The notes beneath the pieces were generated by a model. The model saw only the letters and a list, made by a program, of their open reading frames with translations, ran no database searches and had not been told where the DNA came from. From Methylotenera sp. (lineage in GTDB: Bacteria; Pseudomonadota; Gammaproteobacteria; Burkholderiales; Methylophilaceae): a DNA stretch of 64,000 nucleotides. The stretch covers positions 67,073 through 131,072 of the forward strand of contig JABFRQ010000004.1 of the NCBI GenBank assembly GCA_013141075.1. Reading direction: 5' to 3'. The position numbers and the translations under genes are program-made. Shown piece after piece: positions 2,762 through 51,291 of the stretch. Numbering within the stretch: the stretch's first letter is position 1; every line of letters begins with the position of its first letter.

Positions 2762-3391
2762 TTATAAATAGTAGCTTGATGTCGTCATTACTTTAGACAT
2801 TTTTTTCATTAAAAATTTAGCGGGTGCAGGCAAGTTCGCCGCACCTAATTTGCTGGCTTCATCTGCGTGATTCGCTTCATCAATTTGCATTTGTTCAATA
2901 ATTTTGCGCGTTTTGCTATCGGCTTCAGGTAACTGGGCTAAATGGTTAGCTAAATGTTCGCCTACCTGTTTTTCAGTTTCTTCTAAAAATCCCAAACTCC
3001 ATTTGTCGCCTAGCGCGCCAGCTAGTGCACCTAGCGTAAACGAGCCTGCGTAAAAAAGTGGATTAAGCAAACTAGTGCGTCCGCCCAGCTGTGTAATGCG
3101 TGATTCACACCACGCTAAATGTTCGGTTTCTTCACGCGCGGCTTGCTGCATGGTCACGCTGGTAGCCGCATTTTTTGCGGTAAGTGCTTGGCCGCTATAA
3201 AGCGCTTGCGCGCACACTTCACCCGTGTGGTTAATGCGCATTAAGGCGCTAATATGTTTTTTTTCGGTTTCGGTGAGTAGTGCTTCCTGCACGCCAATAT
3301 CTGGGTGCGCACGTACGCTACGCGGCTTAGCCAGCAAGGTGCGCAAGCCAGTATCGAACTCAACGATTAGGGAATCTAATTTATTTAACAT
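2762..3391 (-). CDS. coq7: 3-demethoxyubiquinol 3-hydroxylase (Coq7 family)
   Basis: Di-iron monooxygenase that carries out the last hydroxylation in ubiquinone synthesis. At 209 residues it has the length of bacterial Coq7 proteins. Carboxylate-bridged di-iron ligands are visible in two ferritin-like halves: INHTGEVCAQALY and REETEHLAWCESRI in the first, and an EQMQIDEANHADEA segment in the second. The N-terminal LDSLIVEFDTGLRTL is typical of the betaproteobacterial form. It sits 21 bp after glcF and 6 bp before DUF2322. Ubiquinone is the electron acceptor for glycolate oxidase, which gives the neighbourhood a loose quinone theme (inference). Confidence 0.95.
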   Translation of the reverse strand: MLNKLDSLIVEFDTGLRTLLAKPRSVRAHPDIGVQEALLTETEKKHISALMRINHTGEVCAQALYSGQALTAKNAATSVTMQQAAREETEHLAWCESRITQLGGRTSLLNPLFYAGSFTLGALAGALGDKWSLGFLEETEKQVGEHLANHLAQLPEADSKTRKIIEQMQIDEANHADEASKLGAANLPAPAKFLMKKMSKVMTTSSYYL

Positions 3392-3412
3392 AGTAATAGT
3401 GTACGCTTAAAA

Positions 3413-4588
3413 TTACCTTGCATAGCCCATTTGGGTAGCAATAATTTGTATGGGGTGCAAAACAGAAACGGTTAAATTTTGCGCACGCAAACCATTAGCA
3501 ATATGTAAACTACAGCCAATGTTAGACGTAGCTAATATTGCTACATTATTCGTTTTAATGGCAGATATTTTATCATTTAATAAATTGTTAGCCATCTCGC
3601 TTTGGGTGAGCATATAAGCGCCAGCACCACCACAGCATTGTCCGTTGCCAGCTAATGCAATAATTTCAGCGTCAGGTATTTTTTTAAGTAGTGCATATAC
3701 GGCAGAATGACTTTTTTGCACATTGCGCAAGGTGCAAGGGTCTTGCACAAAAATGTGTTCTTTTAAGGGCTTTAGTGGTGCATTTGTCCAATCACAGCTT
3801 ACTAAAAACGCGCTGATGTCTTGAATTTTATGCGTTGGCAAATAATCATGCAGCCCCGCGCCACAACCGCTGGCGACCGTTAAAATTGGCATAGTTTGGT
3901 CAAAACTTGTTTGGTTTTGCGCAACTAGTTTGCTAGATTCATCTGCATCACCAGCTTGCCTCGCCATGCTGCCGCAACACGTTTGGCTAGCGGGCACATG
4001 CACATCAAACCCTAATTGATTCAATATAAAAATGCTGGCGTTTAAAGTTTGGCTATCAAGCGCGCTAGTGGCGCAGCCCAAAAACAAGCTCACGGCGCCT
4101 ACTTTATTGCTGGTGGCAGGGTAAAACGATTTCCATGAAGCAGGTTTTTCAATAACAGGTAGAAGTTTTACCGCTGGGTGAATGGCGTTTAACAAGCCAT
4201 TAAGCTTAAATTTTTGCAAAAACCAAATTGGCCAAGTAATGGCCTTAGCCAAAAACCGATGCCGAATAAACGGTTTTGCGAGGGCGAATAACAGGCTTTT
4301 TTTCTGCACAAATAATGCACGCGTAGTATCCACCAGCGCTCCATAATTGACGCTATTTGGGCAAGCGGCTTCGCAATTACGGCAGCTTAAACACAAATCA
4401 ATATGTTCATTAAAACGCGCATTATTGGGTAAAATATCTTGCGCCACAGCCCGCATCAACTGAATTCGGCCACGCGGTGAATCAGCCTCAGAACCTGTTT
4501 TTCGGTAAGTAGGGCAGTGTGGCAAACACAGGCCACAAGCCACGCAACGGTCAGCTTCTACAATCAATTCTTTAATCGATAAACTCAT
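3413..4588 (-). CDS. glcF: Glycolate oxidase iron-sulfur subunit
   Basis: Electron-transfer subunit of the glycolate/D-2-hydroxyacid dehydrogenase complex. Two N-terminal 4Fe-4S motifs (CVACGLCLPHCPTYR and CLSCRNCEAACPN) are followed by two CCG domains (CCGSMARQAGD and CCGGAGAYML), the standard GlcF order. I set the start at 4588 (MSLSIKELI) rather than at an in-frame ATG at 4648, because the extra 20 codons run through the ctpA terminator at 4615-4642 and resemble no GlcF N-terminus. GlcD and GlcE are not adjacent. The large FAD/Fe-S protein at 53571-57448 is a related but separate single-chain enzyme. It could serve another 2-hydroxyacid. Confidence 0.9.
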   Translation of the reverse strand: MSLSIKELIVEADRCVACGLCLPHCPTYRKTGSEADSPRGRIQLMRAVAQDILPNNARFNEHIDLCLSCRNCEAACPNSVNYGALVDTTRALFVQKKSLLFALAKPFIRHRFLAKAITWPIWFLQKFKLNGLLNAIHPAVKLLPVIEKPASWKSFYPATSNKVGAVSLFLGCATSALDSQTLNASIFILNQLGFDVHVPASQTCCGSMARQAGDADESSKLVAQNQTSFDQTMPILTVASGCGAGLHDYLPTHKIQDISAFLVSCDWTNAPLKPLKEHIFVQDPCTLRNVQKSHSAVYALLKKIPDAEIIALAGNGQCCGGAGAYMLTQSEMANNLLNDKISAIKTNNVAILATSNIGCSLHIANGLRAQNLTVSVLHPIQIIATQMGYAR

Positions 4589-4614
4589 GTTGTTATTATA
4601 AAGCTTACGCGCAT

Positions 4615-4642
4615 AAAAAACCCGCCTTAACATCAAGGCGGG
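4615..4642 (-). terminator. Intrinsic terminator of ctpA
   Basis: On the minus strand an 8-bp GC-rich stem (CCCGCCTT / AAGGCGGG, loop of 6) is followed directly by a run of six T. It lies 20 bp beyond the ctpA stop and before the glcF start, so glcF may depend on read-through or on its own promoter. Confidence 0.85.
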
Positions 4643-4661
4643 CTTCAAAAAATACAGCTAT

Positions 4662-6140
4662 TTATTTAGTGAGTGCTGCTTCAACTTTAGGCGGCTCAGA
4701 TGTAATCACTGGCTTACCTTTTAAAAAGTTCATAGCTTGCGCAAATTGTAAATCTTCTTTGCTGGCAGGTTCAATGGGCGCGGTTGGTTCAGCATACTTT
4801 TTCTCATTCAACTTGGCTTTTGCGGCTTCTTTAGTGAGCGTTTTTGCTGGTGTATCAACTGTAGCATCTTTTGATTTAGCATCGGTTGGGTTGCTAATGT
4901 GACGCGATAAATCTGCTTCATGAATGTTGTACGATTGATCTGTACCGTCTTCAACCAAGTAATCTGGCTCAATGCCTTTGGCCTGAATTGAGCGACCTTT
5001 TGGCGTGAAGTAACGCGCAGTGGTGAGCTTAATCGCCGCGCCGTTGTTCATAGGCATAATGGTTTGTACTGAGCCTTTACCAAATGTACGAATACCAATT
5101 AAAGTGGCGCGTTTGTGGTCTTGTAATGCGCCCGCTACGATTTCAGAAGCAGATGCCGAGCCAGCGTTAATTAACACGACCATAGGCACCGTTTTTAAAT
5201 CTGCTGGAATATCACGCATGTAGTCGTTAGCAAAACCGCCACGCGCGTAATTTTCTGGGCTAACGGTCAATTGCATTTTAGAATCAGCCGCGCGGCCTTC
5301 GGTGTAAACCACCAAAGTGTCTTTAGGTAAAAATGCAGCTGACACGCCCACAGCACCATTGAGTAAGCCGCCTGGGTCGTTACGCAAATCTAATACAAAG
5401 CCCTTAAATGGACCTTTATTTTCGGCATGCATAGTTTTAATGGCTTTTGCAAGGTCTTCGCCAGTGTGTTCTTGAAACTGAGTAACGCGCACATAAGCAT
5501 AGCCTGGCTCAGGCATTTTGTATTTCACACTTTTATTTTTGATAATAGCGCGCACTAAATTCACGAGTAGAGGTTTGGCTTCATTTTTGCGTAATATGGT
5601 GAGCACAATTGGTGTATCAGGTTTGCCACGCATAATTTTTACGGCGTCGTTTAAGGTCATGCCTTTAACGAGTTTTTCATCTAGCTTCATGATGAGGTCG
5701 CCACTTTTGACACCTGCTTTGTAGGCAGGTGAGTCTTCAATCGGCGAAATCACTTTTACTAAGCCATCTTCCATACCCACTTCAATGCCTAAACCACCAA
5801 ACTCGCCTTGAGTTGAAGCTTGCATGTCTTTAAATGCATCAACATCCATATAAGTAGAATGTGGGTCTAAGCCCGTAAGCATGCCGCTAATGGCTTCAGA
5901 AATCAGTTTTTTATCTTCGACAGGCTCTACATAATCACTTTTAATTTTGCCAAATACTTCAGCAAATGCGCGTAAATCTTCTAGCGGCAATTGTGGTTTG
6001 GCCATTTTTTCAGCCACGGCTGAATAAGTTAAGCTCAACAAAAATCCCAGTACCAAGCCAGAGCTGATTAAGCCGACTTTAGCAAAGCCTTTGTTTAAGC
6101 TGTTTTTATTTAAACCATGATATTTATTTTTAACTTGCAT
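4662..6140 (-). CDS. ctpA: Carboxyl-terminal processing protease (S41 family, CtpA/Prc-like)
   Basis: Periplasmic serine protease with a Ser-Lys dyad that degrades proteins from their C-termini and tunes peptidoglycan hydrolases in other bacteria. An N-terminal membrane anchor/signal segment (about residues 20-42, VGLISSGLVLGFLLSLTY) precedes a PDZ domain (EFGGLGIEVG to IMRGKP) and the S41 core, with catalytic Ser in GSASASEIVAGALQD and Lys in FGKGSVQTI. The C-terminal tail of about 90 residues is Lys/Ala/Pro-rich and low in complexity. The divergent NlpC/P60 hydrolase neighbour and the lytic transglycosylase elsewhere in the window are possible partners or substrates (inference). Confidence 0.95.
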   Translation of the reverse strand: MQVKNKYHGLNKNSLNKGFAKVGLISSGLVLGFLLSLTYSAVAEKMAKPQLPLEDLRAFAEVFGKIKSDYVEPVEDKKLISEAISGMLTGLDPHSTYMDVDAFKDMQASTQGEFGGLGIEVGMEDGLVKVISPIEDSPAYKAGVKSGDLIMKLDEKLVKGMTLNDAVKIMRGKPDTPIVLTILRKNEAKPLLVNLVRAIIKNKSVKYKMPEPGYAYVRVTQFQEHTGEDLAKAIKTMHAENKGPFKGFVLDLRNDPGGLLNGAVGVSAAFLPKDTLVVYTEGRAADSKMQLTVSPENYARGGFANDYMRDIPADLKTVPMVVLINAGSASASEIVAGALQDHKRATLIGIRTFGKGSVQTIMPMNNGAAIKLTTARYFTPKGRSIQAKGIEPDYLVEDGTDQSYNIHEADLSRHISNPTDAKSKDATVDTPAKTLTKEAAKAKLNEKKYAEPTAPIEPASKEDLQFAQAMNFLKGKPVITSEPPKVEAALTK

Positions 6141-6265
6141 GTATTTATTATTCCCAACAAAGATAACTTGATAAGTCTATGAGCAGGCTTAAGTTTATAG
6201 GTTCAAACAGCGCTTAATTATATTTGTAGCAGTAAGTGCAAAGTATAACAGCTGGTAGACGGTTT

Positions 6266-6895
6266 TTATTGTAGCGACAGTTCATTTGCAACGTTTTTTG
6301 TATCTGTTTTCGCATCATCTAAGCGCTGCGCACCGCTAAAACGCGTTGCCCAATAACCCGTTTGCATGCTTTCTACGCGCACTTGACCACCAGTGCTGGG
6401 CGAGTGAATAAAGCGGTTATTGCCCATGTAAATGCCCACATGAGAAACTGCATTTTTAATGGTTTTAAAAAATACTAAATCACCAGGTTTTAATTCGCCC
6501 TTAGGAATCGCCTTGCCCATCTGACTCAGCGCCAGTGCACTGTGCGGCAAGGTTAAGCTAGCCGCCTGATTAAATACATAACGCACAAAACCGCTGCAAT
6601 CAAAACCAGTTTCAGGCGTATTGCCACCGTATTTATATTTTACGCCAGTTAGGCTAAGTGCGTTTACCAGCACTTCACGTGCGCGGTCTGACCAATTTTC
6701 TTGGTCGTCATCAGTGGTGGTAAGTGTTTGAATGCTGGCTTGGGCGTCTGTATCGTTAGGCATAGGCTCAACAGCCGCGCATGATGCGCTGCATAAGGCA
6801 AGCAATAAGTATGCTGTAAAACGTACTTGAAAACGTATTTGAATATGTTTAACCACAGCGTGATTATAAGAACATAACTGAAAATTGCAAAGCAA
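6266..6895 (-). CDS. NlpC/P60 family peptidoglycan endopeptidase
   Basis: Cysteine peptidase that cleaves D-Glu-diaminopimelate-type bonds in peptidoglycan stems. The NlpC/P60 domain occupies about residues 75-200, with catalytic Cys in GFDCSGFVRYVF, His in SHVGIYMGNNRFIHS and the following polar residue. The N-terminus contains a hydrophobic export segment (FTAYLLLALCSASCAAV). The LCSASC sequence looks like a weak lipobox lacking the usual Leu at -3, so lipidation is uncertain. The ATG at 6895 gives a long N-region; an in-frame GTG at 6856 (VVKHIQIRF) is an attractive alternative start. It is a single-gene unit between ctpA and divergent yoaA. Confidence 0.9.
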   Translation of the reverse strand: MLCNFQLCSYNHAVVKHIQIRFQVRFTAYLLLALCSASCAAVEPMPNDTDAQASIQTLTTTDDDQENWSDRAREVLVNALSLTGVKYKYGGNTPETGFDCSGFVRYVFNQAASLTLPHSALALSQMGKAIPKGELKPGDLVFFKTIKNAVSHVGIYMGNNRFIHSPSTGGQVRVESMQTGYWATRFSGAQRLDDAKTDTKNVANELSLQ

Positions 6896-6959
6896 CGGCT
6901 TGATATTTCAGTAATTATGCTAAGTAGACTATCTTAAGTCGTGGGATAATTACGCGCTT

Positions 6960-45592: not shown

Positions 45593-46285
45593 ATGCCAGC
45601 CAATATATTAGTCGTTGAAGACGAACCCGCTATTCAAGAACTACTTGCGCTCAACATCACCCAAGCGGGGCATAACGCGATGCGTGCATTAAGTGCTGAG
45701 ATTGCACAGAGTTTAATGCGCGAAACGATTCCTGATTTAATTTTACTTGATTGGATGTTGCCTGGTATTAGCGGCTTAGAGTTTGCACGTAAGTTAAAGT
45801 CTGACAGCCTCACAAAAGCGATTCCCATTATTATGCTCACTGCGCGCGGCGATGAATACGACAAAGTACGCGGCCTAGAAGTAGGCGCGGATGACTACGT
45901 GACCAAACCCTTCAGCCCACGCGAACTCAACGCCCGCATCAAAGCTGTGTTACGCAGGCGCGCGCCGCAAATGACGGATGACCCGATTGAAGTCGCAGGT
46001 TTGCGCCTAGACCCCACCACGCACCGCGTCACGGGCAACGAAAAAACTATTGATTTAGGCCCAACAGAATTTAGATTGCTGCACTTTTTCATGACCAACG
46101 CCGAGCGCGTACACACGCGTAGCCAGCTGTTAGATAAAGTGTGGGGCGACCGCGTATTTGTCGAAGACCGCACAGTAGATGTGCATATTCGCCGTCTACG
46201 CAACGCGCTTTCAGTGTCAGGCCATGAAGATTTAGTGCAAACCGTGCGCGGGGCAGGGTATAGATTGTCAGAGAAAAGCAACTAG
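45593..46285 (+). CDS. phoB: Phosphate regulon response regulator PhoB
   Basis: 230 residues, OmpR/PhoB family: receiver with acidic pocket VVEDEPA, phospho-acceptor Asp53 (LLDWMLPG), conserved Thr/Lys in MLTARGDEYDKVRG...YVTKPFSP, and a C-terminal winged helix (GPTEFRLLHFFMTNAERVHT, VWGDRVFVEDRTVDVHIRRL). The high similarity to PhoB across both domains, the Pho boxes before it, and the phoR gene 3.7 kb downstream support the symbol. Three unrelated genes separate phoB and phoR, unlike the usual phoBR adjacency. Confidence 0.94.
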   Translation: MPANILVVEDEPAIQELLALNITQAGHNAMRALSAEIAQSLMRETIPDLILLDWMLPGISGLEFARKLKSDSLTKAIPIIMLTARGDEYDKVRGLEVGADDYVTKPFSPRELNARIKAVLRRRAPQMTDDPIEVAGLRLDPTTHRVTGNEKTIDLGPTEFRLLHFFMTNAERVHTRSQLLDKVWGDRVFVEDRTVDVHIRRLRNALSVSGHEDLVQTVRGAGYRLSEKSN

Positions 46286-46374
46286 CTGCCACACCCTGCT
46301 TTGTTTGCCCCCGCTTATCATTACCGAACCTAATTCTCAGAACAGTTTAAATGGTTGCTTTTTGGCCGTACAAT

Positions 46375-46411
46375 TGGCTGCATGCAACCAATTATTGGTT
46401 GCATGCAGCCA
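46375..46411. repeat. Near-perfect palindrome between phoB and the ABC-phosphatase fusion
   Basis: Arms TGGCTGCATGCAACCAA / TTGGTTGCATGCAGCCA (17 bp, 46375-46391 and 46395-46411) with a 3-nt loop and no T-run. It lies in the gene-free 278-bp spacer 46286-46563. Confidence 0.85.
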
Positions 46412-46563
46412 CCCGTTCAGGTGGTTGACATTAGTTCTTTTAATGTTTCGTTATTCTGTGGTGTTGGTTTAGAATGTGAATAAGTGCTATTTATGACGTT
46501 CGTAAATGGTCTTGTTGGCATCAGCAGCTTGGCGAATAAATTCTAAACTTAAAGTGGCTAAAA

Positions 46564-48201
46564 ATGAGTAACGCAGGTCTTAATCTCACAGGTTATGGTG
46601 TATGTTTTGGTAGTAAGGTCATTCTGGCGGACGTTACTTTAGCAATGTCACGTCAAGGTGTCACTGTACTCATGGGGCCTGTGGGTACGGGAAAGTCCAC
46701 TTTATTATGCAGTTTGGTTGGCATCAATAACAATAATCCGCGTTTTAAATCTTGGGGTACTGCTAGTCTTAATGGCGCTACTGTGGGTGCCTTAAATTAC
46801 CCCATGTTGGTGCGGCAACAAGTGACGCAGCTAGGCGATACAGTAGAAGGTATTGTGTTGAGTGCATCTCAATATTCAGAAGTGAATATCGCAAAGCGTA
46901 AAGAATGGGTTTTGCAAGCGCTGCAAGATTATCAAGCCACAGGTTTGCAGGATTTACTAGGTAAGCGTTTAATTGATATTGATTTAGTGTTTCAGCGTAT
47001 GGTGATGATTGCTGGCGCTGCTATTGCCAATCCTGCGTTGTTGATGATTGATGAGCCCACCGCCAACTTAAATGAAGCAGATGCGGAGAAGATGTTAACA
47101 TTTATACGGCATTTAGGTGAAAAAACCAAACTACTGGTGGTGTTGCATAACCAGCTTCAAGCGCGTGATTTGGCTGAAAATATGATTTTACTGGCAGGCG
47201 GTAGGGTGCAGTTTTACGGGGCTAAAGATGAATTTTTTGCTAAAACATCGCCGAATGACATTGTTAAACAATTTGTGCAAACAGGCAGCGTGAGTGTTTC
47301 TGCACCAGATGCTCTCCGCGAAAATTTAGCGGATGATGTGCCTCCTCCTCCGCCTTTGCCGCAAGCGGCGATAGACGCTATTCGTTCAATTTCTACGCCT
47401 GTTACTTTTGCGCATGAGCCTAGCGCACCAGGCAGCAGCCAACCCAGCGTAGCAACCGCACCGCGAGAGAAAACGCAAGCAGAAAAACTGCAAAGGGTGG
47501 AAGAGTTAAAAAGCCAATTGCAGGCAATAAAAACAGAGGCTAATGAGGCTAAGTTAAAGCTAGAGCAATCTAAACTAGCGCAGCCTAAGGTAGAGCAAAG
47601 CGCTCAAGTGTTAGCGCCTAGCGGCATACAAAACGCTGCGCCAGCACAATTGCGCGAATTACCGCCGCCTTCTAAAGGTGGGGTAAGCATCGTGGCCGAA
47701 ATCGGTAAAAGCAATGCTGCCGCTGCACGTGGGCCAAAAGGTTTTTCGTGGATAGTGCCAGACATGTTAGCGGGCTGCCCAATGCCAGGCGCATCAGCCC
47801 CTGTGAGCTATGATTTAGATTTATTAGCCTCGGTTGGCATTACGGTGCTGATTACATTAACCGAAGAAGATTTGATTCAATACGAATTAAAAGCAGCTGG
47901 TTTGAGTAATGTGCATTTATCCATTTATGATCGTGAAGCGCCATCACTAAGCCAAATGCACATGCTGCTTTTTAAAATGCAAAAATTGATTGAAGCGGGC
48001 GAAGTACTAGCCGTACATTGCCTAGCTGGTATTGGTAGAACAGGCACGGTATTAGCTGCATGGATGATTAAAGAAGGAGGCCTTTCTGCAGAAGAGGCTA
48101 TTAGAAGGTTGAGGTTAATCAACTCAAGTTTTGTGCAAACCGTAGTGCAAGAAGTATTTTTAGCGGAGTTTGAGAATGATATTCTCAGAAGAATGCGTTA
48201 A
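46564..48201 (+). CDS. ABC-type ATPase fused to a dual-specificity phosphatase
   Basis: 545 residues. Domain 1 (about 1-240) is an ABC ATPase: Walker A GPVGTGKST (38-46), Walker B ALLMIDEP (158-165, Glu164), and H-loop His195 in VVLHNQ. The LSGGQ signature is not recognisable; DLVFQRMVMIAGAAI holds its place, as in atypical or soluble ABC proteins. There is no membrane segment. A Pro-rich stretch (PPPPPLP, about 260) and a coiled linker (about 300-345) lead to domain 3 (about 390-545), a DSP/PTP-like phosphatase with general acid in IYDREAPS (Asp456) and loop VHCLAGIGRTGT (Cys486, Arg492). Phosphatase substrate and ATPase partner are unknown. First of three genes between phoB and phoR. Confidence 0.85.
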   Translation: MSNAGLNLTGYGVCFGSKVILADVTLAMSRQGVTVLMGPVGTGKSTLLCSLVGINNNNPRFKSWGTASLNGATVGALNYPMLVRQQVTQLGDTVEGIVLSASQYSEVNIAKRKEWVLQALQDYQATGLQDLLGKRLIDIDLVFQRMVMIAGAAIANPALLMIDEPTANLNEADAEKMLTFIRHLGEKTKLLVVLHNQLQARDLAENMILLAGGRVQFYGAKDEFFAKTSPNDIVKQFVQTGSVSVSAPDALRENLADDVPPPPPLPQAAIDAIRSISTPVTFAHEPSAPGSSQPSVATAPREKTQAEKLQRVEELKSQLQAIKTEANEAKLKLEQSKLAQPKVEQSAQVLAPSGIQNAAPAQLRELPPPSKGGVSIVAEIGKSNAAAARGPKGFSWIVPDMLAGCPMPGASAPVSYDLDLLASVGITVLITLTEEDLIQYELKAAGLSNVHLSIYDREAPSLSQMHMLLFKMQKLIEAGEVLAVHCLAGIGRTGTVLAAWMIKEGGLSAEEAIRRLRLINSSFVQTVVQEVFLAEFENDILRRMR

Positions 48202-48248
48202 AGGTACTGTAATAATTAAATTTAATTAATGGAATAAGGAAAATTAAA

Positions 48249-48665
48249 ATGGCAGGTAAAATGACTTTAGACGAAACAATCAATCAGGTTGTGACCACAA
48301 TTCCAGAGTGTTTGGCGGGTGGTTATGTGGATATTACTTCAGGGATGTTGTTATCAGTTAAAACAGTAGATTCACACCCCGCTGCAATTTTAGATTTAGT
48401 AGCAGCGGCTACTAAAGATATGTTTGCGGGGCAAAACGTGATGATGATTGAGTCTATGTTTAAAAAAGCACGTGGTGTGGCTGATGATGGTCATCACTAT
48501 TTTCAAGAAATTATTGTGAACAGTGACAATCTATTACACGTGTTTTTACGCGGTAAAAAATATCCTGATTATGTGGCCGTTTTTGTGTGCAGAAAAACAG
48601 CCAACTTAGGCATGGCGCTTACCAAAGCGCGTATGGGTATGCCAGAAATTGAATTAGCAGTTTAG
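48249..48665 (+). CDS. Roadblock/LC7-like small protein
   Basis: 138 residues, cytoplasmic. The order of secondary structure is helix (DETINQVVTTIPE), two strands (GGYVDITSGMLLSV), helix (AILDLVAAATKDMFAG), strand pair (FQEIIVNSDNLLHVFL, DYVAVFVCRKTANLGM), and final helix, which fits the Roadblock/LC7 fold of MglB-type GTPase regulators; the residues LGMALTKARM are typical of the last strand-helix. No GTPase gene lies next to it, so it may use the ATPase of the preceding gene as partner (inference). A perfect 13-bp hairpin follows at 48673. Confidence 0.6.
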   Translation: MAGKMTLDETINQVVTTIPECLAGGYVDITSGMLLSVKTVDSHPAAILDLVAAATKDMFAGQNVMMIESMFKKARGVADDGHHYFQEIIVNSDNLLHVFLRGKKYPDYVAVFVCRKTANLGMALTKARMGMPEIELAV

Positions 48666-48672
48666 TTTTTAG

Positions 48673-48702
48673 GGTAGGAGCGCAATAAATTGCGCTCCTA
48701 CC
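48673..48702 (+). terminator. Hairpin between the Roadblock-like and ferredoxin-globin genes
   Basis: Perfect 13-bp stem GGTAGGAGCGCAA / TTGCGCTCCTACC, loop TAAA, followed by the T-rich TATTTTATTTTT. It looks like an intrinsic terminator or a widespread GTAGGAGCGC repeat, leaving the next gene with its own promoter or read-through. Confidence 0.8.
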
Positions 48703-48752
48703 TATTTTATTTTTCAAGAAATTTCACGCAATATCCCCGTATTAGAGAACCC

Positions 48753-49895
48753 ATGCCAACACTTAGCTTTGAAGGTAAAAGTGTCACTACCTTAGAGAAT
48801 GAAAAAGTTTTAGAAGCTTTTTTACGCGTAGGTATCAATATTCCATTCTCATGCCGTAATGGCGTATGCCACAGTTGCAAGTGCATTGCGCAAACGGGCG
48901 AGGTGCCACAAAACGCCCAAAAAGGCCTATCAACAGAGCAGCGTGAGCAAGGTTTTTTTCTCCCTTGTTTGTGTGTGCCAACTGAAAACATGGTGATTTT
49001 GCCAGTTTCAGCCCTTAAAGTTTTTACCACCACCATTGTGCAAGGCAAAACACTTTTAGCCAATGGTGACTATCAATTACTGTTAGAACCTACTTTAACC
49101 AGCCCATCAAGTTGTGGGCAGTTACTCAATTTGCGCTTATCCAATAATGAAGTGCGCAACGTTAGCATTACCAACCAGCCTAGTGAAGATTATTTTATTG
49201 AAGTTCAAATAGCGTGTTCAACTAACGATGCGACTAAGCAGTGGCTTGCAACGCTAGCGATAGACGATGCCTTAGAAATACAAGGCCCATACGATGCGGA
49301 TACGGTAAACAGCGTTCCTGACCCAGTCGCGGCGGCAATCCCTCGTGCTAAATATCCGCCGCCAGATGCCACGCTATGGACAGCCTTGCAAGAAGGTAAA
49401 TTGTTAATGGTAATCCTCAAAGATTTTTACGGCCGCGTGTATCAAGACCCATTGCTTTCGCCTTATTTTCATGGCACTACCATGTTACGTTCTATTGAAA
49501 AAGTGTACTCATTTATGCACCAAGTCTGTACTGGTGAGCACACTTATTTTGGCGAGCGCCCAAAAAATTCGCATCATTGGATGGTGATTTCAGACGAAAC
49601 CTTTAACTATCGTGAAGCTTTAATGATGGAATGTCATCGCAGGGCTGGGCTTTCTGATGAAATGTCGCAACGCTGGATGGCGATAGAGCGACATTACAAG
49701 CAAGATATAATAAAAGATGCGCCTTTGCCGCGTAGTTTTGGCAATACTGTGCTCCCTTTAGACGGCTATGGCGAGATGATGATTGAAGTCGGCTCCATGT
49801 GCGATGGCTGTGGCAGAGTGGTAGAGCCAGGCGAGCATATACGTTATCACTTGCGTTTAGGCACGTTGTACTGTGGGCAGTGTAACGGAATATGA
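48753..49895 (+). CDS. 2Fe-2S ferredoxin, reductase-like barrel, truncated globin and zinc ribbon fusion
   Basis: 380 residues starting MPTLSFEGKSV. Domain 1 (1-90) is plant-type ferredoxin with Cys34, 39 and 42 and the fourth ligand in LPCLCVP (Cys72 or Cys74). Domain 2 (about 91-195) is a short beta-barrel like ferredoxin-NADP reductases, without a visible nucleotide-binding domain. Domain 3 (about 205-325) is globin-like: VILKDFYGRVYQDPLLSPYF, then NSHHWMVIS (candidate proximal His at 274/275) and CHRRAGLSDEMSQRW, which resembles truncated haemoglobins of bacteria. Domain 4 is a treble Cys pair, CDGC (350/353) and CGQC (374/377), a zinc ribbon. I reject the upstream start at 48690, as it runs from the hairpin. 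A redox or O2/NO sensor is my inference. Confidence 0.85.
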   Translation: MPTLSFEGKSVTTLENEKVLEAFLRVGINIPFSCRNGVCHSCKCIAQTGEVPQNAQKGLSTEQREQGFFLPCLCVPTENMVILPVSALKVFTTTIVQGKTLLANGDYQLLLEPTLTSPSSCGQLLNLRLSNNEVRNVSITNQPSEDYFIEVQIACSTNDATKQWLATLAIDDALEIQGPYDADTVNSVPDPVAAAIPRAKYPPPDATLWTALQEGKLLMVILKDFYGRVYQDPLLSPYFHGTTMLRSIEKVYSFMHQVCTGEHTYFGERPKNSHHWMVISDETFNYREALMMECHRRAGLSDEMSQRWMAIERHYKQDIIKDAPLPRSFGNTVLPLDGYGEMMIEVGSMCDGCGRVVEPGEHIRYHLRLGTLYCGQCNGI

Positions 49896-49909
49896 TCGTT
49901 CATTTCAGC

Positions 49910-49939
49910 TTACTTTTCATAGGTAAAAATCGCTATAAT
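49910..49939 (+). promoter_or_regulatory. Candidate promoter of phoR
   Basis: TTACTT (-35, 49910-49915) and TATAAT (-10, 49934-49939) with an 18-bp spacer. It would let phoR be expressed independently of the three genes before it. Confidence 0.5.
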
Positions 49940-49968
49940 TAGGCGCATAAAATAACTGAAAAAAGCCT

Positions 49969-51291
49969 GTGCCCGATATTCGTTTAAAAGCCATTTTATT
50001 GATTTGCGCACTTGGCGTTATTAGCTTATTTACATGGCTAATAAGTAGTGCAAATACGGCATTGCTGATATTTTCTATTGGCCTGTTGCTTTATCTTATT
50101 AGCCATATTATTTGGCTGCATAAATTACACCTTTGGTTTAAAAATCCTGAGCTTACAGCTGTTCCTGAAGGTTCTGGTTTGTGGGAAGACGTTTTTACCG
50201 CGCTACTGCAATATGAGCGCAATAATCAGCGCAACCAAACTCAGTTAAATTCAGCGTTAGAGCGCTTTAGCTTGGCCACCAGCGCCATGCCTGATGGCTT
50301 GGTAATATTGGGTGTGAGCAACGAAATTGAATGGTGTACACCTAACGCCGAAAGTCAGCTTGGGCTTAATTTAAGCACCGATAAAAACCTACCTATTGTA
50401 AATTTAATCCGCGAAAGTCATTTTATTGCCTATTTGTATAACGGCGATTATGACGAGCCCTTTAAGTTAAAATCTTGGCGAAACACTGAAATAGTGCTTG
50501 AAATTCAGCTGATTCCCTTTGCAAATAATCAAAAATTACTCATATGCCGCGACATGACGCAGTTAGAAAAAGTTGAGGTGATGCGCCGTGATTTTATTGC
50601 TAATGTTTCGCATGAGCTACGCACGCCACTCACCGTGGTTGGCGGCTTTTTAGAAACACTGAGCGATATGGAAGGCGCTGTGCCTGAAAGCCTCAAAACG
50701 TATTTTGCGATGATGGAAGAGCAAACCATTCGCATGCGCCGCATTATTGAAGATTTGCTCACGCTATCCACCATAGAAAGTAATATTTCAGAGCCAGATG
50801 ACAGCGAAATTGATATGCACAGCCTGCTGAAATCTGTACAAAATGACGCAATAGGCTTAAGCCAAGGCCTGAATAAAATCAAGCATCAAATTCATCTTGA
50901 GGCTGATGCCACGCTTAATTTAAACGGAGCACAGGAAGAGTTGCGCAGTGCGTTCAGCAATTTAGTCAGCAATGCTATTCGCTACACGCCCAATGGCGGC
51001 GAAATTTTTATCAGCTGGACATTGCAAGGCGAGCAGCCCGTTTTTTCAGTACGCGATACGGGCATTGGCATAGAACAAAAACATATAGAAAGGCTCACAG
51101 AGCGCTTTTATCGGGTAGATCGCAGCCGTAGCCGCGAAACTGGCGGCACAGGTTTGGGCTTATCTATTGTGAAGCATATTTTAATTCGGCATCAAGCCAA
51201 GTTAGAAATTAGCAGCGAAATTGGCGTAGGCAGCACTTTTAGCGCAGTGTTTCCTAAAGCGCGGGTTGTGCGGAAATCTGTGCCAAATTAA
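49969..51291 (+). CDS. phoR: Phosphate regulon sensor histidine kinase PhoR
   Basis: 440 residues. N-terminal pair of hydrophobic helices (about 5-50) with no periplasmic domain, charged linker, PAS domain (about 100-190: SLATSAMPDGLVILGVSNEIEW-like start), HisKA with His215 in FIANVSHELRTPLT, and HATPase with NAIRYTPNGG, DTGIGI and GGTGLGLSIVKHIL. This is the PhoR architecture, which needs an intracellular partner such as PhoU. GTG start. The cognate phoB lies 3.7 kb upstream, so the pair is interrupted by three genes. A terminator ends the unit. Confidence 0.94.
   Translation: MPDIRLKAILLICALGVISLFTWLISSANTALLIFSIGLLLYLISHIIWLHKLHLWFKNPELTAVPEGSGLWEDVFTALLQYERNNQRNQTQLNSALERFSLATSAMPDGLVILGVSNEIEWCTPNAESQLGLNLSTDKNLPIVNLIRESHFIAYLYNGDYDEPFKLKSWRNTEIVLEIQLIPFANNQKLLICRDMTQLEKVEVMRRDFIANVSHELRTPLTVVGGFLETLSDMEGAVPESLKTYFAMMEEQTIRMRRIIEDLLTLSTIESNISEPDDSEIDMHSLLKSVQNDAIGLSQGLNKIKHQIHLEADATLNLNGAQEELRSAFSNLVSNAIRYTPNGGEIFISWTLQGEQPVFSVRDTGIGIEQKHIERLTERFYRVDRSRSRETGGTGLGLSIVKHILIRHQAKLEISSEIGVGSTFSAVFPKARVVRKSVPN

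Follow-up and report, generated by a model that had tools for sequence, protein, structure and literature searches.

A Roadblock-type signalling cassette with phosphatase and ferredoxin-globin parts between phoB and phoR in a Methylotenera genome

In prokaryotes, Roadblock proteins are known to partner the small GTPases that determine cell polarity, pilus activity and development, and Roadblock proteins typically bind NTPases; the conservons of Streptomyces sometimes include a P450 gene as well. The closest described systems are the Group 3 MglA systems of beta- and gammaproteobacteria, which are described as operons that begin with a conserved protein of unknown function and continue with MglA and one or two MglB homologues (Wuichet and Søgaard-Andersen 2014, PMC4316618). 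A study of the bee-gut symbiont Snodgrassella, whose mglA its authors assign to Group 3, reports that bacteria mutated in an orphan mglB were at an advantage in a non-native host, potentially via type IV pilus-dependent motility (PMC11112851). Here we analyse three genes lying between phoB and phoR in a 64,000-nucleotide stretch of a Methylotenera sp. genome (assembly GCA_013141075.1, contig JABFRQ010000004.1; this whole stretch is hereafter the window). They encode an ATPase of the ATP-binding cassette (ABC) type fused to a dual-specificity phosphatase, a Roadblock-fold protein here called Rbl, and a ferredoxin-globin protein, and together they are a new variant of Roadblock-type signalling. 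A first-pass annotation of the window knew of no described system with this gene content; no description of the set was found in the literature searched (most subscription papers lying outside the search).

Gene content and distribution of the cassette

The cassette is a genuine signalling module in which the ABC-phosphatase and Rbl travel together. A pattern search of the GTDB genome collection for Rbl, which reaches close relatives only and covered contigs of 3 kb or more (many from metagenome-assembled genomes, MAGs, with several loci cut by contig ends), returned 52 loci from Comamonadaceae, Gallionellaceae and other Nitrosomonadales, Rhodocyclaceae, Methylophilaceae, Thiohalophilus, Myxococcota and Acidobacteriota. 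The ABC-phosphatase lies within 2 kb of Rbl on the same strand at 50 of these, the two exceptions (L047 and L051) having Rbl close to a contig end, and a ferredoxin/globin gene stands near the pair at 11 of the 52 (10 on the same strand), which bears out the annotators' view of these genes as a signalling cassette. Eight loci (L035, L037, L038, L041, L043, L049, L050 and L052) carry in addition an MglA-type GTPase and an LC7 Roadblock together with a reductase-globin gene, of which L043 has only the globin part. Beyond these eight, the ferredoxin/globin gene takes the form of a shortened globin protein (L034), an N-terminal part cut by a contig end (L044) and a globin part on the opposite strand (L039). 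The gene order in L050 is G18-type protein, GTPase, ABC-phosphatase, Rbl, LC7 and reductase-globin protein, the Pfam matches being ATP_bind_1/Roc, Robl_LC7 and Fer2 + FAD_binding_6 + NAD_binding_1 + Bac_globin.

Two relatives are closest to the window in layout or sequence. The Rhodoferax MAG that holds L034 matches the window in the three genes and their order, but a convergent T2SSF (pilC-type) gene, not phoR, comes after them. In the nearest relative (L006, the same genome as G113 and L102) Rbl is 90% identical and the phoB-phoR pair is on another contig; no globin gene was seen in the 1.07 kb of contig that remain after Rbl. The overall distribution is patchy: Rbl was found in 3 of 100 genomes of the family, the ABC-phosphatase in 4 of 52 genomes of the genus and matches to an Rbl profile in 7 of 399 genomes of the order. 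In the Rbl tree (134 columns, many weak nodes) the window protein groups with Comamonadaceae copies (a 16-row clade, 97/91), and two further copies from the genus join Gallionella-type copies in another clade (99/96). Since the two kinds of Rbl found in one genus sit in different clades, the tree points to at least two acquisitions of the cassette in this genus. The guanine-plus-cytosine content of the three genes (0.40-0.454) is near the window mean of 0.432, and composition therefore neither supports nor excludes recent transfer.

Several other associations were considered and set aside. No Rbl was present among phage records, and plasmids gave only five distant matches, all from Ruegeria (33.6-38.8%), so neither phage nor plasmid cargo was retained. 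A defence system was likewise rejected: PADLOC matched the ATPase only through weak overlaps with its ABC domain (mad3 34 bits, LmuB 22 bits) and gave zero matches for the other six proteins tested. A tie to protein kinases was dropped too, Pkinase matches occurring in 9 of 10 chosen genomes, with and without the cassette; the negative genome, G031, carries ABC-phosphatase and Rbl. On the Ruegeria plasmid pTHAF33_a (L185, 3580-16399) the distant Rbl (38.8%) is encoded in a cluster with an FHA protein, a Ser/Thr kinase and four proteins of the dynamin family, and so again has NTPases as neighbours. At L019 and L020 a GGDEF-EAL protein with an N-terminal protoglobin is encoded upstream of the ABC-phosphatase near the pair (Pfam-confirmed in L020), which gives the pair a further haem sensor as neighbour.

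Rbl itself (48249-48665, plus strand, 138 aa) belongs to a highly conserved family, mostly 60-90% identical across phyla, that matches no Pfam or NCBIfam family at E up to 1, Robl_LC7 included, and that gave a single, meaningless match among PDB sequences (E 0.53). Its AlphaFold2 model, built from 43 homologous rows, reached a pLDDT of 92.7, and Foldseek placed it closest to 3kye (E 1.2e-7), then to MglB (3t12, 6hjm) and then to Ragulator subunits, with top matches spanning E 1e-7 to 1e-5 at TMq of about 0.6-0.7. On this model Rbl is a Roadblock-fold protein, as the annotation had proposed. Tandem Rbl-type genes occur near two-component genes in L054 and L051 (Vicinamibacteria and Polyangia), one of them 36-38% identical to the window Rbl, and L054 additionally encodes a receiver-DUF4388 protein.

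The first gene (46564-48201, plus strand, 545 aa) encodes an ABC-type ATPase at about residues 1-240, a Pro-rich/coiled linker and a dual-specificity phosphatase at about residues 390-540, a fusion recognised in the first pass and with which the Pfam matches (ABC_tran, Tc-R-P, PTP-SAK and DSPc) agree. In the ABC domain, Walker A (GPVGTGKS), Walker B (IDEPT) and the H-loop H195 are nearly invariant columns of the alignment, and none of the 19 aligned proteins containing this domain has the LSGGQ signature, most of them showing an LPxxxQR-like sequence there. The phosphatase active site reads HCLAGIGRTG in the window and HCxAGxGRTG in all 20 aligned proteins, in which D456, presumably the general-acid Asp, is also invariant. 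A solitary second ABC-phosphatase in G006 (L101, G006:C1, 5422-6801) reads, by eye, GPKGTERA at Walker A and QSDAGLGRTG at the phosphatase site, and is probably an inactive paralogue; because this copy has both sites altered, the motifs suggest that selection maintains ATPase and phosphatase activities alike in the other copies. The ABC-phosphatase reading frame is enlarged (1,192-1,963 aa) at three Myxococcales loci, L053 (1114-7002, with two ABC_tran stretches), L046 and L048 (both at about 3300-6900).

The ferredoxin-globin protein (48753-49895, plus strand) agrees with the fusion of ferredoxin, barrel, globin and zinc ribbon read from the sequence at first pass. It begins with a [2Fe-2S] ferredoxin (Fer2, E 4e-13) whose plant-type Cx4Cx2C...C cysteines are conserved, continues with a degenerate, vestigial barrel of FAD type and a truncated globin (Bac_globin, E 2.5e-7; HbN in the PDB, E 1.8e-5), and retains a Zn-ribbon-like CxxC...CxxC at the C terminus. 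The HH and DFY motifs of the globin part are conserved in alignment with longer relatives, and haem binding is predicted. Compared with these relatives, the proteins of the window and of L034 have neither the NAD(P)H-binding domain nor the flavin motif RxYS; L050 has both.

A proposed phosphatase switch and its alternatives

Taking gene content, Roadblock fold, conserved motifs, distribution and location in relatives together, we consider, with moderate confidence, that the cassette is a transferred, reduced Roadblock/Ras-like-GTPase system, incidental to phoB and phoR, and a self-contained nucleotide-gated phosphatase switch with redox input. A system of this type would have been acquired horizontally, by a route that we presume, and inserted between the phoB stop codon and the promoter-like box of phoR, where its position would be incidental. 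The ABC-type domain would bind ATP and is probably not a normal transporter engine, because the family is without the LSGGQ signature. Rbl would bind and control this domain as MglB does MglA, a role proposed because Roadblocks typically bind NTPases and, of the NTPases at these loci, the ABC domain is the most regular member; the nucleotide state of the ABC domain would then gate the fused phosphatase, whose putative substrates are protein targets to be dephosphorylated, and the ferredoxin-globin-Zn-ribbon protein would supply an oxygen, nitric oxide (NO) or redox input. In the full operon the MglA-type GTPase and LC7 would take part as well, and the globin protein, with its complete NAD(P)H-FAD reductase, would serve as a haem enzyme or sensor driven by NAD(P)H, the shortened form working via its ferredoxin alone.

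A bolder version of this proposal, which we offer tentatively and judge possible rather than probable, is that of an undescribed class of switch derived from Group 3 MglA, in which Roadblock controls a Ser/Thr/Tyr phosphatase joined to an ABC ATPase that has no signature motif, the ferredoxin-globin protein reads oxygen, NO or redox state, ATP replaces GTP, and the GTPase has been dispensed with in this genome as in G113 and G031. If true, the family, which in its full form includes a haem reductase, would show Roadblock switches taking in redox signals and passing them to protein dephosphorylation, and Comamonas or Delftia, easily grown environmental bacteria, make the cassette testable.

Several points weigh against the proposed switch. 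The contigs of the window genome contain no intact MglA-like GTPase and no match to Robl_LC7 (PF03259), so the Roadblock-NTPase analogy would here be confined to the ABC domain; the genome is about 90% complete, which makes such gene absences uncertain. In G270 and G231, of the Comamonas/Delftia kind, GTPase genes are located elsewhere in the genome and Rbl may serve one of them. Complex formation between Rbl and the ABC domain is itself part of the proposal, the model of the ferredoxin-globin protein is modest (pLDDT 72.7, pTM 0.50), and its listed Foldseek matches are ferredoxins and reductases with no globins among them. The putative link to Group 3 is drawn from operon content and one weak profile match, and a recently inserted gene could yet have gained a Pho role. 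Finally, a terminator-like hairpin parts the ferredoxin-globin gene from Rbl, and that gene was unseen near 41 of the 52 Rbl loci, several of them cut by contig ends.

The last two observations favour an alternative in which ABC-phosphatase and Rbl are the unit and the ferredoxin-globin protein, merely adjacent, has a redox or NO-detoxifying role of its own. The hairpin is a perfect 14-bp inverted repeat followed by a T run (48672-48703, plus strand) and separates the second gene from the third, so that the three genes may not share one transcript. The listed reading frame of the third gene begins at TTG 48690; since this codon sits within the hairpin, ATG 48753 is probably the true start. A repetitive extragenic palindromic (REP)-type repeat was rejected for this hairpin, an exact-pattern search finding one copy in the genome. 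Also in keeping with a separate protein, the GTPase operon of G197, with five genes, and its shortened ferredoxin-globin gene are on different contigs, and four of the seven Rbl genomes in the order sample are without a match to the globin part. On the other side stands a search of the 399 genomes of the order with the full-length reductase-globin protein of L050 (E up to 1e-40), a cut-off that, with this query, lets weaker globin relatives escape. It matched 42 genomes, in 39 of which the match was confined to the ferredoxin/reductase part (about residues 1-346), and the globin/Zn-ribbon part was matched in just three (the window genome G000, G197 and G365), all of which have Rbl. The ferredoxin-globin gene is moreover present at all eight GTPase-bearing loci (as the globin part only in L043) and completes the identically ordered trio of L034, which a pilC-type gene follows. 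Given this balance, we regard a merely adjacent globin protein as rather unlikely, while still deserving weight.

Decay would be another way to read the missing parts: the cassette could be the remnant of a complete GTPase operon that is being lost from this genome. The GTPase, LC7 and the G18-type protein are all missing here (the last, which G006 and G121 have, is without a match in G113 and G031 too), the globin protein has lost its reductase domain, and a GTPase search of the window genome yields one 37-residue match, 62% identical to the MglA-type GTPase, on another contig (L184, G000:C2, 2943-3053, minus strand), which probably survives from a GTPase gene since lost. Against decay, however, all three reading frames are intact with their motifs conserved, the Comamonadaceae pair is without an adjacent GTPase, and both G113 and G031 hold ABC-phosphatase and Rbl with no GTPase, PF03259 or G18 match anywhere in the genome, so the GTPase-free form is not peculiar to the window genome. 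The shortened globin protein is present in two further lineages (L034 and L161). Because GTPase-less pairs and the shortened globin protein recur in this way, the reduced form looks stable and we consider a decaying remnant improbable.

Position between phoB and phoR

All five reading frames, phoB, the three cassette genes and phoR, lie on the plus strand in the order given by the first-pass annotation. The neighbours are outside the module: phoB (45593-46285, response regulator; TIGR02154, 353 bits, cut-off 296.2) and phoR (49969-51291, sensor kinase; TIGR02966, 416.7 bits, cut-off 334.2) encode proteins that each exceed their NCBIfam equivalog cut-offs. The 278 bp that separate the cassette from phoB contain a perfect 18-nt inverted repeat with a 1-nt spacer (46375-46411), operator- or terminator-like, for which the window holds zero further sites within 2 mismatches; it is a possible candidate operator upstream of the cassette. 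Just upstream of phoR stands a TATAAT promoter-like box (49934-49939, plus strand), downstream of the entire cassette.

We compared this arrangement across 52 genomes of the genus, a set separate from the 52 Rbl loci. At a threshold of E up to 1e-80, phoR was found in 51 of them, and in 47 phoB is its neighbour, no more than about 350 bp away (26 of the 28 loci L060-L087, L091, and 20 of 20 further fetched regions, PhoB being in pieces in L109 and partial in L120). The five exceptions are the present genome with its cassette, G114, the contig ends of G108 and G124, and G129, without a phoR match. The cassette lies between phoB and phoR in this genome only, and the other three same-genus carriers of the ABC-phosphatase have it either 600 kb from phoR or on a different contig. 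The TATAAT box recurs upstream of phoR in 51 of 51 rows, that is, in 50 of 50 genomes (L062 and L099 come from the same genome, and G124, whose contig starts at phoR, was omitted). Very probably, then, phoR has its own promoter throughout the genus, with the hexamer as the putative active element, and because the box is retained genus-wide and lies downstream of the cassette, the insertion appears to have occurred upstream of phoR's own promoter. In G114 (L099, G114:C91, 2610-4754) the region upstream of phoR is occupied by divergently oriented genes that encode an ECF-type sigma factor, FecR and a protein with an STN domain (Pfam), and phoB is not on the stretch that bears phoR; these genes are possibly a second insertion into the gap.

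The first-pass annotation had read the position as a link between energy or oxygen/NO status and phosphate signalling. On this reading the cassette would be a dedicated PhoBR accessory, working for example through a phosphatase acting on PhoR or PhoB or a globin tuning PhoR. Such a role could draw on the shared strand and the position itself, on the ABC domain having PstB as its best NCBIfam match, though a weak one (77.6 bits, cut-off 343.2), and on same-strand two-component genes within 3 kb in one Comamonas/Delftia clade (13 loci) and at six other loci or locus pairs. The nearby two-component genes, however, are at most 39% identical to PhoB (no PhoB match above this value was found at the 52 Rbl loci from other genomes), and similar matches also occur 3-5.5 kb away; the comparison was informal and no excess is claimed, so that a recurrent tie to two-component genes was rejected as well. 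With the cassette at phoBR in one of 52 genomes of the genus and in none of the three other carriers, phoR retaining its own box, and G114 having other genes (sigma factor, FecR) upstream of phoR, location, promoter box and relatives lead us to reject a Pho accessory as very improbable. What the first-pass annotation had named as refuting its reading holds for the location of the cassette; the block itself stays together in relatives. The case is also a warning that an unexpected gene found between phoB and phoR may have no part in the Pho system.

Comparison with described systems

The full-length relative of the ferredoxin-globin protein combines Fer2, FAD_binding_6, NAD_binding_1 and Bac_globin and thereby recalls flavohaemoglobin and BenC-type reductases, and the Foldseek matches of the window protein include ferredoxin-dependent dioxygenase reductases. 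It differs from both in domain order, with an N-terminal ferredoxin and a C-terminal truncated-type globin plus Zn ribbon, and the window protein is reduced further, having neither the NAD(P)H domain nor the RxYS motif. With the conservons (CvnABCD) of Streptomyces, as outlined in the main text of PMC4316618, the L050-type operon shares the combination of Roadblock and GTPase signalling genes, but it shows no CvnA-type kinase and no CvnC and has instead the ABC-phosphatase and the globin.

The MglA/MglB polarity module of Myxococcus and Thermus is alike in the MglB/Roadblock fold predicted for Rbl and in the pairing of an NTPase with a Roadblock; the local NTPase of the window, in contrast, is an ABC ATPase and not a Ras-like GTPase, and Rbl goes unrecognised by the Robl_LC7 profile. 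Closest of all are the Group 3 MglA systems. An operon in G356 encodes an unknown protein, a GTPase, an LC7 protein and an Rbl-like protein, a Group 3-like order in which the second Roadblock resembles Rbl (29% identity) and the first protein matches the G18 family with an hhalign probability of 82% (E 1.1e-5, 115 columns). The window cassette lacks the GTPase, LC7 and the unknown first protein, and the feature of a GTPase within the operon is found at 8 of the 52 related loci and not in the window. Conversely, the words "phosphatase", "globin" and "ferredoxin" occur zero times in the main text of PMC4316618, relative to which the ABC-phosphatase fusion and the ferredoxin-reductase-globin gene are additions. 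Judged by its gene content against that main-text description, the full operon looks like a Group 3-type system to which two parts, an ABC-phosphatase and a globin reductase, have been added.

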